Assembly (NCBI GenBank): GCA_902761825.1
Contig: CACWLY010000028.1
Coordinates: forward strand, 1 to 51,071
Direction of reading: 5' to 3'
DNA: 51,071 nucleotides
Origin: an uncultured Eubacteriales bacterium
GTDB lineage: Bacteria; Bacillota; Clostridia; Christensenellales; Aristaeellaceae
This document shows, piece after piece, positions 1 through 38,888 of the stretch (positions are counted from its first letter, which is position 1; each line of letters opens with the position of its first letter). Under the pieces are notes generated by a model that saw only the letters and a list, made by a program, of their open reading frames with translations, had not been told where the DNA came from and did not search any database. A program made the position numbers and the translations under genes.

Positions 1-113
1 GGCAGGCTAAGGGCGGGCAATCCGCAGATTGCCGCCCGCAACCCGCGCTTCCCGCAGGGAGTAGCGCGGGGCGAGCCAGAAGAAAGCGCGTATTTCCTGC
101 CTGTTCCGCGGAA
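1..113. other. Structured intergenic DNA at the window edge
   Basis: No gene is visible before position 220. Bases 1-6 (GGCAGG) can pair with 96-101 (CCTGCC). Inside lie two hairpins: 12-36, with arms around GGCAATC/GATTGCC and one bulge, and 42-70, with CCCGCGCT/AGCGCGGG enclosing TCCC/GGGA. Together they would form a three-way junction. The palindrome TTCCGCGGAA follows at about 104-113. No T-run follows, so these are not ordinary terminators. The element may continue left of the window. Confidence 0.4.
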
Positions 114-167
114 ATTTGGCGCTTTTGTCTTAAATCACCATTCACATCATGGCCCTTAGAACGCGAA

Positions 168-203
168 TAATATAAAAGCCCGGCAGCGTGAGGCTGCCGG
201 GCT
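168..203 (-). terminator. Rho-independent terminator of the PhnD-like gene
   Basis: An 11-bp perfect stem (177-187 with 193-203) has a 5-nt loop and is followed on the minus strand by TTTATATT. It lies 17 bp after the stop codon of the 220-1266 gene, so it closes that transcript. Confidence 0.9.
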
Positions 204-32987: not shown

Positions 32988-33190
32988 TCCTGCTATTGAA
33001 GGAAACGTTAGGGCCTACGCGATCCGGGGCCTTCCGGCCCGTTTCTCGCTAAAAACCCCCAGCCCTCGCCAACTGCGGTTCCGGTGTAACTTGTCGAAGC
33101 AGCAGCTTGCCGCTGCCGGTTGGATAGCGTGAGCCACCGCTCCCGGGCAGCGCGGCAAAGCCGCGCATACTGTGCGCGTCAGCGCACAGT

Positions 33191-33252
33191 GAGCAAAAGG
33201 GAAATGCCAGAAAAACAAGCTCGTTTGTTTTTCTGGCATTTTTCTTTTGTTC
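33191..33252 (+). terminator. Long terminator-like hairpin in the structured region
   Basis: Arms of 28 nt (33191-33218 and 33225-33252) pair fully if three G-U pairs are allowed, around a 6-nt loop. The right arm includes TTTTTCTTTT, so it may stop transcription from the EAL gene. The A-rich left arm makes it work in the other direction too. Confidence 0.6.
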
Positions 33253-33257
33253 ATTAT

Positions 33258-33347
33258 GCCCGGGAGCTCACTTAGCCCCATAGGCCAAACAGGTGGAAGC
33301 AAGTCTGGTTTACGCTCCGCGCCCCAACGCCGGGATGGGTCCAGGGG
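33258..33347 (+). repeat. 90-nt inverted repeat, copy B
   Basis: This aligns without a gap to the reverse complement of 35601-35690, with 59 of 90 bases identical by hand count. The best blocks are GCCCGGGA, GGTTTACG and GGTCCAGG. Copy B lies before parE. Confidence 0.7.
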
Positions 33348-33491
33348 TTTCGAGCGCCCGGAAAATCTTCCCTTGGGATGATAATCCTGGCCTTCGGCCA
33401 GCGCAAGCGAACAGCGAGAAACGACTCAGGCGGGCCCTGGCGAAGAGCTCGAGGGCGGCGCCCTCGAACATCCCCTTTATAATGGTATGTT

Positions 33492-33521
33492 TTGACATCC
33501 GACCGCAATATGTGGTATAAT
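33492..33521 (+). promoter_or_regulatory. Sigma-A promoter of parE
   Basis: TTGACA (33492-33497) is followed after 18 nt by TATAAT (33516-33521), both perfect. The leader is about 30 nt and includes CAGGAGGA before the ATG at 33559. Confidence 0.88.
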
Positions 33522-33558: not shown

Positions 33559-35547
33559 ATGTCACAGATCAGGTCGCAGGAGAGCAGCTACAACGCGGGA
33601 AAACTGCAGGTGCTGGAAGGGCTGGACGCGGTGCGGATGCGTCCGGGCATGTACATAGGCACCACGAGCTCGCGGGGGCTGCATCATCTGCTGTGGGAGA
33701 TTGTGGATAACGGCATTGACGAAGCGCTGGGCGGCTACGCGACGGAGCTGATCGTCACGCTGCACAAGGATGGCAGCGCGTCGGTATGGGACAACGGCCG
33801 CGGCGTGCCGGTGGACGAGCATCCGCAGTATCACATCAGCGGCATCGAGCTGATTTACACGCGGCTGCACGCGGGCGGCAAGTTTGGCAACGACAACTAC
33901 GCGTATTCCGGCGGCCTGCACGGCGTAGGCGCGTCGGTGGTCAACGCGCTGTCCAAATGGATGACGGTGGATTCCTTCCGCGACTGGACGCATTACCAGA
34001 TGCGGTTTGAAACGCTCTGGGACGAGAAAGAAAAGAAATGGCACGGGGGCAAGCCGGTAAGCGGGCTTGAAAAGCTGGGCAACACGCGCAAGCGCGGCAC
34101 GCTGGTGCGCTTCATGCCCGACGACACGATCTTCACCGAGGATCACCGGTTCAACAGCGAAACGGTATCGCGCCGCCTGCGCGAGCTGGCCTACCTGAAC
34201 AAGGGGCTCAAGATCACCTTTGTGGACGAGCGCGCGAAGGAAGACGACAAAAAGCAGATGGAGTTCTGCTACGCCGGGGGCATCAGCGATTACGTGAAAT
34301 ATCTTAACCAGAACAAGACCCCGCTTCACGACGACCCGATCCTGCTGGAGGGCAAAAAGGACGACATCCTCTGCTCGGTATCCATGCAGTACACCGACAG
34401 CTACACCGAGAGCGTGTTCAGCTACGTGAACAACATCCCCACCGGCGAGGGCGGAACGCATGAAATGGGCTTCCGCACGGCGCTGACGAAGGCCTTCAAC
34501 GATTACGCGCGCAAGATCGGCGCGCTGAAGGAGAAGGACGCGAACCTGGCCGGCGAGGACTTCCGCGAGGGCCTGACCGCGGTGGTGACCGTAATGGTCA
34601 AAAACCCGCAGTTTGAGGGCCAGACCAAGGGCAAATTGGGCAACAGCGAGGTAAAGCCCGCGGTGGAAGCGATCGTTTCGGCCCAGCTGTACGAGTTTCT
34701 GGAAAACCTGAAAAACGCCGATCTGGCCGCGAAGATCATTGAAAAATCCATCAAATCGGCCAAGGTGCGCGAGGCCGCGCGCAAGGCCCGCGACGTGGCG
34801 CGCCAGCGCAACAGCCTGGAGGCCGCGCCGCTGGTGGGCAAGCTGAGCGCCTGCACGGGCAGAAAGCCGGTGGAAAACGAGCTGTTCATCGTGGAGGGCG
34901 ATTCGGCCGGCGGCAGCGCAAAGCAGGGCCGCGACCGGCATTTCCAGGCGATCCTTCCGCTGCGCGGAAAGCCGCTGAACGCCGAGAAAAAGCGGCTGGA
35001 TCAGGTGCTGCAGAACGAGGAATTCCGCAGCCTGATCACGGCGCTGGGCACCAATATCGACGAGGATTTTGATATCTCGGCGCTGAAATACCACAAGGTG
35101 ATCATCCTCAGCGACGCCGACCAGGACGGCGCGCACATCCGCGCCATCCTGCTGACCTTCTTCTACCGCTACATGAAAGAGCTGATCGCCCAGGGGCACG
35201 TGTACATCGGCATGCCGCCCTTGTACCTGGTCAAGCGCCCGGGCGGCCAGCAGGAATACGCCTACGACGACAAAGCGCTCAAAAAGCTGACCGAGGGCAA
35301 AAAGAACTACACCATCCAGCGCTACAAGGGCCTGGGTGAAATGAACCCCGAACAGCTGTGGGAGACCACCATGGACCCGGCCAACCGCCGCCTGATGCGC
35401 GTGACGCTGGAGGACGCCGCCCGCGAGGACGAGATCGTCACCATCCTGATGGGCGACAAGGTCGATCCCCGCCGCGAGTACATCATCAGCCACGCCGAGT
35501 TCAACAAGGTAGACAAGTTTGCCGAGCACGCGCAGGTGCAGAACTGA
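33559..35547 (+). CDS. parE: DNA topoisomerase IV subunit B (ParE/GyrB family)
   Basis: This is the ATPase subunit of a type IIA topoisomerase, 662 aa. The GHKL ATPase domain shows EIVDNGIDEA, WDNGRGVPVD and the ATP-lid sequence GGLHGVGASVVNALS. A transducer domain follows. The TOPRIM domain shows EGDSAGGSAKQGRDR and DADQDGAHIRAILL, and the C-terminus ends in the usual YKGLGEMNPEQLWETTMDP and MGDKVDPRREYI. Pairing with a GyrA-type gene without a gyrase box in blade 1 favours ParE over GyrB. It would decatenate daughter chromosomes together with ParC. Two hairpins follow the stop codon. Confidence 0.93.
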   Translation: MSQIRSQESSYNAGKLQVLEGLDAVRMRPGMYIGTTSSRGLHHLLWEIVDNGIDEALGGYATELIVTLHKDGSASVWDNGRGVPVDEHPQYHISGIELIYTRLHAGGKFGNDNYAYSGGLHGVGASVVNALSKWMTVDSFRDWTHYQMRFETLWDEKEKKWHGGKPVSGLEKLGNTRKRGTLVRFMPDDTIFTEDHRFNSETVSRRLRELAYLNKGLKITFVDERAKEDDKKQMEFCYAGGISDYVKYLNQNKTPLHDDPILLEGKKDDILCSVSMQYTDSYTESVFSYVNNIPTGEGGTHEMGFRTALTKAFNDYARKIGALKEKDANLAGEDFREGLTAVVTVMVKNPQFEGQTKGKLGNSEVKPAVEAIVSAQLYEFLENLKNADLAAKIIEKSIKSAKVREAARKARDVARQRNSLEAAPLVGKLSACTGRKPVENELFIVEGDSAGGSAKQGRDRHFQAILPLRGKPLNAEKKRLDQVLQNEEFRSLITALGTNIDEDFDISALKYHKVIILSDADQDGAHIRAILLTFFYRYMKELIAQGHVYIGMPPLYLVKRPGGQQEYAYDDKALKKLTEGKKNYTIQRYKGLGEMNPEQLWETTMDPANRRLMRVTLEDAAREDEIVTILMGDKVDPRREYIISHAEFNKVDKFAEHAQVQN

Positions 35548-35554
35548 GGGGACG

Positions 35555-35610
35555 TTGGGGGCTTCTTCAGCCCCCAAACCCCCGAACCAGGAGATTTCAT
35601 CTCCTGGACC
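35555..35610 (+). terminator. Two hairpins after parE
   Basis: Stem 1 is 35555-35563 with 35569-35577 (9 bp, no T-run). Stem 2 is 35587-35595 with 35599-35607 (9 bp), followed by ACCTTTT. The second may end part of the parE transcripts, making parC partly independent. Confidence 0.55.
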
Positions 35611-35690
35611 TTTTCCCGCGATGCGGCGTATCCCGTAAACCATGCTTGCCTCCGCGTGCGGCTTATATGCCGTCAACCGAGTTCCCGGGC
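35601..35690 (-). repeat. 90-nt inverted repeat, copy A
   Basis: This is the reverse-strand relative of 33258-33347, 59/90 identical without gaps. Its outer arm GTTCCCGGGC (35681-35690) pairs with 35708-35717 around a 17-nt loop. In copy B the corresponding stem encloses 107 nt with three hairpins. Confidence 0.7.
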
Positions 35691-35785
35691 TGATGAAAAC
35701 CTGGCCGGCCCGGGAACGCCGATACATCCCATAACCAGTTGGCGGTCGCGCTGCAACAGGAGCGGCGACAGACGCAGGTTTCTTT

Positions 35786-35814
35786 GTTTCTTTCTTTGAC
35801 GCAAAGAAAGAAAC
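35786..35814 (+). other. 13-bp perfect hairpin before parC
   Basis: GTTTCTTTCTTTG (35786-35798) pairs with 35802-35814 around ACG. No T-run follows on the plus strand. It stands 27 bp before the parC start and could affect parC translation or act as a terminator on the minus strand. Confidence 0.6.
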
Positions 35815-35841
35815 GTATTCCCCAAAAAGGAGAGCCTTTCC

Positions 35842-38295
35842 ATGCCCAGAACCACCCAAACGCCCCCGCCCGTGAATCCCCCCGAGATCATCCAGATGCC
35901 GCTGGAAGACGTGATGCATATGAGCATGATGCCCTATGCCGAGCACGTTATCCTGGAGCGCGCGCTCCCGCGGGTGGAGGACGGCCTGAAGCCCGTGCAG
36001 CGCCGCATCCTGTACACCATGATGGAGCTGGGCAACACGCCCGATAAGCCGCACCGCAAGTGCGCGCGCATCGTGGGCGACTGCCTGGGCAAATACCATC
36101 CCCACGGCGACAGCAGCGTATACGACGCGCTGGTGCGCATGGCGCAGGATTTCAGCATGCGCGAAACGCTGGTGGACGGCCACGGCAACTTCGGCTCGCT
36201 GGACGGCGACAGCGCCGCGGCGATGCGTTATACCGAAGCGCGCATGGCCCCGCTGGCGCTGCAGATGCTGCGCGATCTGGACAAGGACACCGTGCCTTTC
36301 AGCCTGAACTTTGACGACACGCTGAAGGAGCCCGATATCCTGCCCGCGCGCTATCCGAACCTGCTGGTCAACGGCGCGACGGGCATTGCGGTGGGCCTGG
36401 CGACCAATATCCCCACGCATAACCTGCGCGAGGTCATCTCGGCGGTCAACCTGCGCATCGACGACCCGAGGGCCGGGCTGGACGATTTCATGCGCCTGCT
36501 GCCCGGGCCGGACTTCCCGACCGGCGGCGTGCTGCTGGACACGCCGGAGATCCGCACGGCCTACGAGACCGGCCGCGCCAAGCTGACGCTCCGCGCGCGC
36601 GCGCACATCGAAAAAGGCCCGCTGGGCCGCAGCCTGATCGTGATCACCGAGATCCCCTACGGCGTCAACAAGGCCGATATGCTGTCCAAGATCCTCAAGG
36701 TCTCGGAAGAGAAAAAGGCCATGTTCAGCTGCATTCACGATATCCGGGACGAGAGCGACCGCAGCGGCCTGCGCGCCGTGATCGAGATCAAGAAGGACTT
36801 CGACGCCAATAAAATATTGCAGAAGCTGTACAAATACAGCGACCTGCAGATCACCTACGGCGTCAATATGGTGGCGATCAAGGAGGGCAAGCCCGTGCAG
36901 CTGGGGCTGATCCCGCTGCTGGACGCCTTCATCGACCACCAGAAAAACGTAATCACCCGCCGCAGCCGCTACGATCTGGACCAGGCGAAAGCCCGCGACC
37001 ACATCGTGGAAGGCCTGATCCGCGCGGTGGATATCCTGGACGACATCATCAAGACCATCCGCGCGAGCAAGAACGGCAAGGAAGCCCGCGAGCGCCTGTG
37101 CGAACAGTTCGGCTTCACCGAACAGCAGGCCCAGGCCATCCTGGATCTGCGCCTGCAGCGCCTGACCGGGCTTGAGATACTGCAATTGCAGCAGGAGTCC
37201 GAGCAGCTGAAAAAGACCATCGCCGAGCTGGAGGGCATATTGGGCAGCGAAAAGAAGCTGCTGAAGGTGATCAAGAAAGAGCTGGGCGAGATCGGCGAAA
37301 AGTTCGGCGACGACCGCCGCACGTCCATCCTGCGCGAGGACCCCGCCGCTTCGGCCGCCGAGGAGGAAGAAACAGACCTGCCCGTGCCCGAGGACTGCGT
37401 GGTGCTCTACACCCGCGGCGGACAGCTGCGCCGCATGCTGCCGCGCATCTTTGAAAAGCTCGACCTGACCACGCAGGAAAGCGACATGCCGCGCTTCCTG
37501 CTGCGCACGCAGACCGATCATACGCTGCTGTTCTTCACCGACTGCGGCCAGTGCTACATGCTGCCGGTGGCGGCGATCGCCGACAGCCTGCGTCCCCGCG
37601 AGCGCGGCGTGGCGCTGACCGGCATACTGAACGGCTTTGAGAGCGGCGAAAACTGCGTCAATATCCTGGATATCGCCCCGGGCGGCTTCGACGCCCTGCC
37701 CGATTTCCTGTTCTATACGAAGAGCGGCCTGGTCAAGCGCAGCCCGGCGAAGGAATACGCCGTGCGCCGCGCGCGCTTCGCCGCGCTGAGCCTCAAGGAG
37801 GGCGACGCCGTGATCGCGGTCTGCCTGTGCGCCGAGCGCGCCGACGCGTTCATCGTGACCCGCGCCGGCATGAGCATCCGCTTCGCGCTGGACACCGTGC
37901 CCGCGCAGGGCCGCGCCAGCGGCGGGGTAAAGGGCATCGCCCTGGCCGCCGGGGACGAAGCCATCCTGGGCGGCACGCTGCTCAACAGCGACCAGGTGCT
38001 GATCTTTACCGAGTGCGGCTACGCCAAGCGCGTGCCCGGGGCCATGCTCGATCCCCAGGGCCGCGGCGGCAAGGGCGCGCGCATCATTCCCTTCAACAAA
38101 AACGGCAGCACGGGCACCTATATCGCGGCCTGCAAAAAGCTGACCTCCGTGCGCGATTTCACCGTCATGCAGAAAAACGGCATGCTCACCCCCATGAACA
38201 GCGAGTCTATCGCGCCGCAGGGGATGAACGACAAGGGCAAAACCGCCGTGATCGCGGTGATGGACGACGTGGTGACCGATATTATACTGTGGTAA
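35842..38295 (+). CDS. parC: DNA topoisomerase IV subunit A (ParC/GyrA family)
   Basis: This is the DNA-cleaving subunit, 817 aa. The winged-helix domain has the catalytic tyrosine in AAMRYTEAR (Tyr130). The quinolone-resistance region [20 protein letters not shown] keeps Ser91 and Asp95, the usual sensitive residues. IGKYHPHGD-type and GHGNFGS motifs, the tower, a long coiled coil (about 400-500) and a C-terminal beta-pinwheel follow. Blade 1 has no QRRGGKG gyrase box, which favours ParC. A related GRGGKGA sequence instead appears in a late blade (about residues 735-745). The ATG has AAAAAGGAGAG upstream. It lies 294 bp after parE. Confidence 0.93.
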
Positions 38296-38303
38296 AAGAA
38301 AAA

Positions 38304-38337
38304 CCCGACGGATTCTGTTTCCGTCGGGCTTTTTTTT
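38304..38337. terminator. Bidirectional terminator after parC
   Basis: CCCGACGGA (38304-38312) pairs with 38320-38328, followed on the plus strand by CTTTTTTTT and preceded by an A-run. It serves parC and, on the minus strand, the operon ending at 38349. Confidence 0.92.
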
Positions 38338-38348
38338 GATGCGGCGGA

Positions 38349-38888
38349 TCATTGGCCGCGCCGCTGCAAATACGCTTCAAACTCCGGCGTGCGCGACCAG
38401 TATTTGACGCCCCAGTTTTCAAAATTCCATTCTTCCATATACGCGTTGCACTCATAATCCACATACCAGATCACTCCCTCCCGCGCCACGAAATTGGTGG
38501 GGAAATAATCGATGTTCAGGCCGGCGGCCTTCGCCTGCGCCGCCATTTGCCGCGCCTGCGCAAGATAGGGCTCGACGGACTGTCCGGCGAGCACGAGATC
38601 GAAAACGGTCGGCCCTTCGATATACTCCTTCACGATGCGCTCGGCTTCGGTATCGACGGCCAGCATCCGGGGAACGCGGATCCCGGCGCGCAGCAGCCGC
38701 GCGTAATCCCGCTGCTCCGCTTCGATTTTATTGCCGAAGGTATAATAATCGCAGGGCTCGTGATGAATCTGCTTGAGCACGGCCAGCTCCGCGCCCGCGC
38801 GGGCGAGATAGGAATAGCCGCCCTTGCCGTGGCCCAGCAGGCGGAGGATATCATACGTTTTTCCGCAGACGACGCATTGCTTTTCCAT
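38349..38888 (-). CDS. Very small protein-kinase-fold protein with N-terminal CxxC
   Basis: The 179-aa cytoplasmic protein has the skeleton of a protein or small-molecule kinase. It shows a glycine-rich loop LGHGKGGYSYLA (18-29), an invariant-type Lys39 in LAVLKQI, a helix-C Glu (Glu56 or Glu58), a hinge near VKEYIEG, a catalytic loop NIDYFPTNF with Asp127 and Asn132 in D-x4-N spacing, and a metal Asp144 in VDYEC. The N-terminus has CVVCG, a possible half zinc knuckle. It lacks most of the C-lobe, being about 70-80 residues shorter than a normal kinase. The substrate is unknown. It is last in a seven-gene run headed by a LytTR regulator. Confidence 0.65.
   Translation of the reverse strand: MEKQCVVCGKTYDILRLLGHGKGGYSYLARAGAELAVLKQIHHEPCDYYTFGNKIEAEQRDYARLLRAGIRVPRMLAVDTEAERIVKEYIEGPTVFDLVLAGQSVEPYLAQARQMAAQAKAAGLNIDYFPTNFVAREGVIWYVDYECNAYMEEWNFENWGVKYWSRTPEFEAYLQRRGQ

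Follow-up and report, generated by a model that had tools for sequence, protein, structure and literature searches.

Organization of the EAL-parE intergenic region

The window (the whole stretch of DNA analysed here, 51,071 nucleotides) comes from an uncultured gut bacterium of the Eubacteriales (family Aristaeellaceae) and includes an EAL gene, parE and parC. A sequence-only reading had proposed that the region between the EAL gene and parE holds a structured RNA of about 400 nt, with three long nested stems and a four-way junction. The features of this region, together with two further copies of the repeat to which it belongs, are listed below in the order of the window.

1..172, + strand: third copy of the repeat, truncated where the contig begins; its terminal inverted repeat occupies 150-172 and has TAA next to it
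32991..32997, + strand: TGCTATT, possibly a vestige of the left terminal inverted repeat (consensus of the family TACTATTC), a weak likeness read against complete copies
32998..33479, + strand: extent of the recognisable copy of the repeat (GAAGGAAACGTTAGGGCC ... GAACATCCCCTTT), lying after the EAL gene stop and before the parE promoter; dispersed matches in its own genome, orthologous site empty in 7 congeners
33040..33050, + strand: proposed outer stem, left arm; both arms in 4/25 copies
33053..33059, + strand: proposed middle stem, left arm; both arms in 6/25 copies
33139..33149, + strand: closing stem of the four-way module, 5′ arm; two-sided changes at 4/11 aligned pairs
33150..33166, + strand: hairpin 1, GCGCGGC-AAA-GCCGCGC; swapped as a whole in other copies
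33169..33190, + strand: hairpin 2, from fold and covariation
33191..33252, + strand: hairpin 3, ~28 bp, terminator-like on both strands; in other copies its place is taken by many unrelated sequences, almost all of them well paired
33257..33267, + strand: closing stem, 3′ arm, pairing with 33139..33149; covariation
33268..33314, + strand: conserved tract (CCAAACAGGYGGAAGCAAGTYTGG) that lies outside the four-way module; found 44 times at ≤3 mismatches, reversed control 0; also in G003
33344..33350, + strand: proposed middle stem, right arm; both arms in 6/25 copies
33413..33423, + strand: proposed outer stem, right arm; both arms in 4/25 copies
33449..33467, + strand: right terminal hairpin (TCGAGGGCG-G-CGCCCTCGA); variants in other copies
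33481..33487, + strand: AATGGTA, possibly a vestige of the right terminal inverted repeat (AATAGTA in the consensus), a weak likeness from direct reading
33492..33521, + strand: parE promoter downstream of the repeat, TTGACA-18-TATAAT, 12/12 match, perfect sigma-70
35548..35823, - strand: second copy, degenerate, which takes up the gap from parE to parC (GGGGACGTT ... AACGTATTCCCC); match to model R1 at 35718-35634, E 1e-11

All three stems of the earlier proposal are present. The outermost, 33040-33050/33413-33423, is 11 bp long and 100% paired; the pairing 33053-33059/33344-33350 is part of a stem; and the innermost extends to 33139-33149/33257-33267 (11 bp, 100%) and encloses hairpins at 33150-33166, 33169-33190 and 33191-33252, giving the four-way junction. 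The energy-model fold that had been suggested as a check gave a minimum free energy of -250.1 kcal/mol for 32990-33490, far below the shuffled sequences (-189.4 ± 6.4; z -9.6; 0/100 shuffles as low). The remarks that no coding frame and no known RNA core explain the stretch also held: the longest ORF across it has 97 aa and is no plausible gene, the window has no Rfam match at the gathering score, and neither tRNA nor tmRNA was detected. The Rfam search at gathering score was likewise negative for 13 further loci from several genera, and a permissive scan of the window returned matches far below the gathering scores, mostly of microRNA type at hairpin 3.

Since the parE promoter lies downstream of the repeat, the repeat is outside the parE 5′ UTR, and the stretch can be transcribed only by read-through from the EAL gene or from a promoter of its own. 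With a perfect promoter located after the repeat, the reading as a parE leader or riboswitch is rejected. Similar parE promoters are found in congeners both with and without the repeat. On the - strand, opposite parE and parC, the 1596-aa open frame at 33562-38352 is a very long spurious ORF.

A dispersed and mosaic repeat

Matches to the stretch were found at 40 or more places in its own genome (118 aligned pieces), many of them at contig ends, at which the assembly breaks. A search for the conserved 27-base core at ≤3 mismatches gave 44 occurrences in the genome, on both contig strands, and 0 for the reversed pattern. The repeat is about 200-700 bp long, its conserved module alone ~130 bp, and it is non-coding, no module lying inside any ORF. 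The aligned copies are mosaics in which left modules are interchangeable and several right modules occur. Hairpin 1 has three forms and hairpin 2 two main forms, while hairpin 3 is represented by many unrelated sequences, including one form that is much longer. Exact core patterns had no match in genome_contigs or viral_contigs, and an iterative profile built with nhmmer was set aside after it had wandered onto both strands of the palindrome. Loci L073, L079, L107, L112, L033, L031 and L065 carry another short repeat (TACTATTCTCAGTATAAAAGATTATC ... GCGCTACGTTG), different from the first and often inserted in it or beside it; at L073 this second repeat has a 10-base direct repeat, TTGGAATTAA, on its two sides.

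The surroundings of parE were compared at species level among 10 genomes of the genus, a comparison of occupied and empty sites rather than of exact insertion or excision junctions or strain-level empty sites. The repeat stands directly upstream of the parE promoter in G000, G007 and G008; the same site is empty in G001, G002, G004, G005, G006, G009 and G010, whose ParE proteins are 88-95% identical (the G009 contig starts shortly before parE, and only the adjoining stretch is readable). Synteny differs at the EAL orthologue of G003, which was of no use as an empty site. The second copy of the window begins right after the parE stop codon, and the parE-parC gap is ~290 bp there and ~78, 41, 41 and 28 bp in G002, G006, G008 and G001, respectively. 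The repeat has been gained or lost at orthologous sites. Model matches were also present downstream of parE in G007. At L220, L221 and L213, upstream of parE in congeners without the repeat, ordinary hairpin-plus-T-run terminators are found.

Covariation of the four-way module

An alignment of 31 modules from four species has 50 consensus pairs, and the two-sided changes at 34/50 of them show that the pairing of the four-way module is conserved. The closing stem, for example, takes the forms CTCCCGGGCA/TGCCCGGGAG, TTCCCTGGCA/TGCCAGGGAA and CTTCCGGGCA/TGCCCGGAAG. The core, made up of the closing stem and the three hairpins, remains paired through complete changes of its sequence. The compensatory changes anticipated by the sequence-only reading were therefore found in the innermost stem and the three hairpins and not in the two outer stems, for which both arms occur in only 4/25 and 6/25 own-genome copies; these two outer pairings are local and not conserved.

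Ends and mobility

Complete copies start with TACTATTC...TTCTAAGAGCC and finish with its inverse. The terminal inverted repeat was located at 66 sites of its own genome at ≤3 mismatches (control 0), and TNA stands outside it at 52/67 distinct ends, against a background of 3.7% (p 4e-61). Among the two-ended copies with TNA on both sides, the three bases are identical in 7/12 (chance 25%, p 0.014) and differ in 5/12. TNA duplications are known in the IS1031 group of IS5 elements. The inverted repeats with TNA flanks are a DNA-transposon signature, and the family is MITE-like. The copy between the EAL gene and parE retains only 7-base remnants of the terminal repeat (32991, 33481), whose flanks do not match; outside the 7 nt on the left stands TCC, not TNA. 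Those copies from other species that were read lack the TACTATTC inverted repeat, so the evidence from terminal repeats and target duplications is limited to this species.

No PF01609 (DDE_Tnp_1) transposase was detected in the own genome, an 87% complete draft that breaks at repeats, and its absence thus counts weakly against the mobile reading. The Y1 transposase PF01797 was absent from the repeat-rich genomes G000, G002, G003, G004 and G008, which are drafts, so that this absence is not absolute; Y1 transposases do not appear to track the repeat.

A long RNA-like fold in a multi-copy, mobile element would also be seen in a ribozyme or an intron-type RNA (a group I or II intron or similar). 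This origin is very improbable, given that the copies are intergenic and split no gene, that the Rfam searches at gathering score were negative in the window and the 13 further loci, and that the inverted repeats and TNA flanks point to a DNA transposon.

Position at gene ends

Genes were called with a simple codon-usage caller, which was checked on the window. The 66 copies that could be classified lie between convergent genes (36) or between co-directional genes (30), with 0 between divergent genes and 0 inside genes; every copy therefore follows at least one gene end. The background of the window is 3 convergent and 4 divergent gaps, and a circular chromosome has as many gaps of the one kind as of the other. 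The co-directional copies are oriented 17 versus 13, with no significant bias.

Such a distribution would be expected of a strand-symmetric device working at gene ends, be it a bidirectional terminator, a barrier at the 3′ end of mRNAs or a DNA-protein site (e.g. for gyrase, between convergent genes). The enrichment between convergent genes and the lack of copies between divergent promoters speak for it, as do hairpin 3, which scores terminator-like on both strands, and the hairpins with T-runs that several congeners without the repeat carry upstream of parE instead; REPs and BIMEs share the location bias (PMC3733652). The terminators of these congeners suggest that the repeat occupies the terminator position upstream of parE, and bidirectional termination at gene ends is plausible, given the scores of hairpin 3 on both strands. 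However, the hairpins are not classic terminators, their T-runs lying inside the stem; an insertion preference or purifying selection accounts for the location equally well; and a strict terminator scan yielded too few cases for comparison. We regard a gene-end device as possible, on balance short of probable, and it is compatible with a mobile origin.

Distribution among relatives

The covariance model of the module matched 14/150 genomes of the family, in 3/50 genera; copies are many in the own genus and in genus g46 and few in genus g10. Related modules are multi-copy in at least 5 congeneric species and in one more genus; the copies of G007 were detected by DNA matching. In an order-wide covariance search 3/297 genomes were positive, all from the same family, and none outside it. 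Those relatives that public records name are assemblies of uncultured gut Clostridia and Christensenellaceae. Elements that proliferate typically show such a patchy presence at high copy number.

As seen at loci L192-L211 of G137 and G117, the entire arrangement around the module recurs across genera; it consists of a GGGGCTTTGCCCC hairpin, a CCAGGG..CCCTGGACCC hairpin, GCGGAAGT..TTTCCCGC, the module, GCGGAAACAAGTTTG and a GGGTCCAGGG..CCCTGG hairpin. In these loci the GCGGAAG on both sides could alternate in pairing with one CCGC.

Strand symmetry of the pairing

A transcript tolerates GU pairs and not AC pairs, while a palindrome in DNA treats both alike. In a strand-neutral count over 56 distinct modules the imperfect pairs were GU 46 versus AC 55 (p 0.43), or 39 and 37 when distinct contexts are counted, figures that share ancestry among copies and for which the limits of the hairpins were taken from RNA folding. 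The fold of the + strand is the more stable in 27/56 modules, and modules from other genera gave GU:AC = 7:7. The tRNAs of the same genome gave 39:0, a control biased by the detection method, yet the contrast is large. The pairing is equally conserved on both strands, so the repeat looks like a folded DNA element and not a dedicated RNA. GU is the commoner of the two in the closing stem and hairpin 2 (18:6), leaving room for some RNA-level constraint, and an RNA acting from both orientations would likewise give symmetric counts.

These results bear on the proposal of a functional structured RNA, either a 3′ UTR element or an independent ncRNA, that has become multi-copy and whose four-way junction is selected in the transcript. 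Its covariation is extensive, the conserved tract adjoins the module, the location at gene ends provides read-through transcription, and the GU lean of the closing stem and hairpin 2 points the same way. Against it stand the GU:AC counts of the modules in comparison with the tRNAs, the co-directional copies facing either way, the patchy presence with no Rfam family, and the orthologous sites that are empty in close relatives. A structured RNA is accordingly improbable, and the designation given in the sequence-only reading is unsupported: the stretch is better described as a dispersed, mosaic, mobile repeat whose pairing is strand-symmetric and which has no preferred orientation relative to the preceding genes.

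Proposed origin and maintenance

We propose that the stretch represents a single copy of a mobile DNA repeat found in this Clostridia lineage, which is non-coding, rich in palindromes and kept downstream of genes, and we consider this probable. The repeat would be moved as DNA by a transposase supplied in trans. Its arms may be kept matched at the DNA level by template switching between them during replication or, alternatively, because a hairpin or cruciform in the DNA is under selection; the perfect arms and the free turnover of sequence fit either process. Copies would survive only downstream of genes, where the insertion may be harmless or a hairpin-rich, terminator-like block may be useful.

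A more speculative extension, which we hold to be rather unlikely, is that the conserved trait is the shape itself, a folded single strand of DNA or a cruciform with a four-way junction and three hairpins. A transposase or host DNA protein would then recognise the shape and not the sequence, the sequences of the hairpins would turn over freely, and the shape would persist across genera. If true, the repeat would offer a natural system for the study of DNA hairpin recognition and palindrome upkeep.

Covariation is often held as the best evidence for a functional RNA, and this element passes that test yet fails the strand-specific ones. In scans based on structure, mobile repeats of palindromic form can pass for RNA genes, and the GU-versus-AC count combined with gene-orientation statistics is a cheap means of separating the two.

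Comparison with known systems

The family is closest to the bacterial MITEs (PMC2229807) and to the REP/BIME elements. Bacterial MITEs such as Correia/NEMIS, RUP, ERIC and RU-1/2 (reviewed in PMC2229807) are, like the repeat, short, non-coding, intergenic, dispersed and foldable. The terminal inverted repeats and short target duplication are also MITE-like, being seen in the family of this species; the copy between the EAL gene and parE has 7-nt remnants of the former and no visible duplication. Unlike MITEs, the repeat is built around a palindromic four-way core that is conserved even as entire hairpins are swapped, and its relatives in other species share the core but differ in their ends. 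No parent transposon was found in the searches for PF01609 in its own genome and for PF01797.

With the REP/BIME elements (PMC3733652) the repeat shares a palindromic, mosaic, multi-copy nature and a location downstream of genes, in convergent and co-directional gaps. REP/BIME units measure 20-40 bp, whereas those of the repeat measure 200-700 bp, and their partner is a Y1 (RAYT) transposase, while in the drafts examined PF01797 does not track the repeat. In addition, the frequent GT pairing of REP/BIME elements was taken as support for a role as RNA (PMC3733652), and the stems of the repeat have no overall GU excess.

Template switching between arms has been proposed to make and repair hairpins (PMC8794818). 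Hairpins of that origin have perfect stems and multi-base compensatory changes created at the DNA level, a likeness to the repeat; they were described for the histories of RNA genes, and their extension to a mobile repeat is proposed here by analogy. In comparison with these systems, the family is unusual for its conserved four-way shape, which persists from genus to genus while the hairpins that form it are fully exchangeable.
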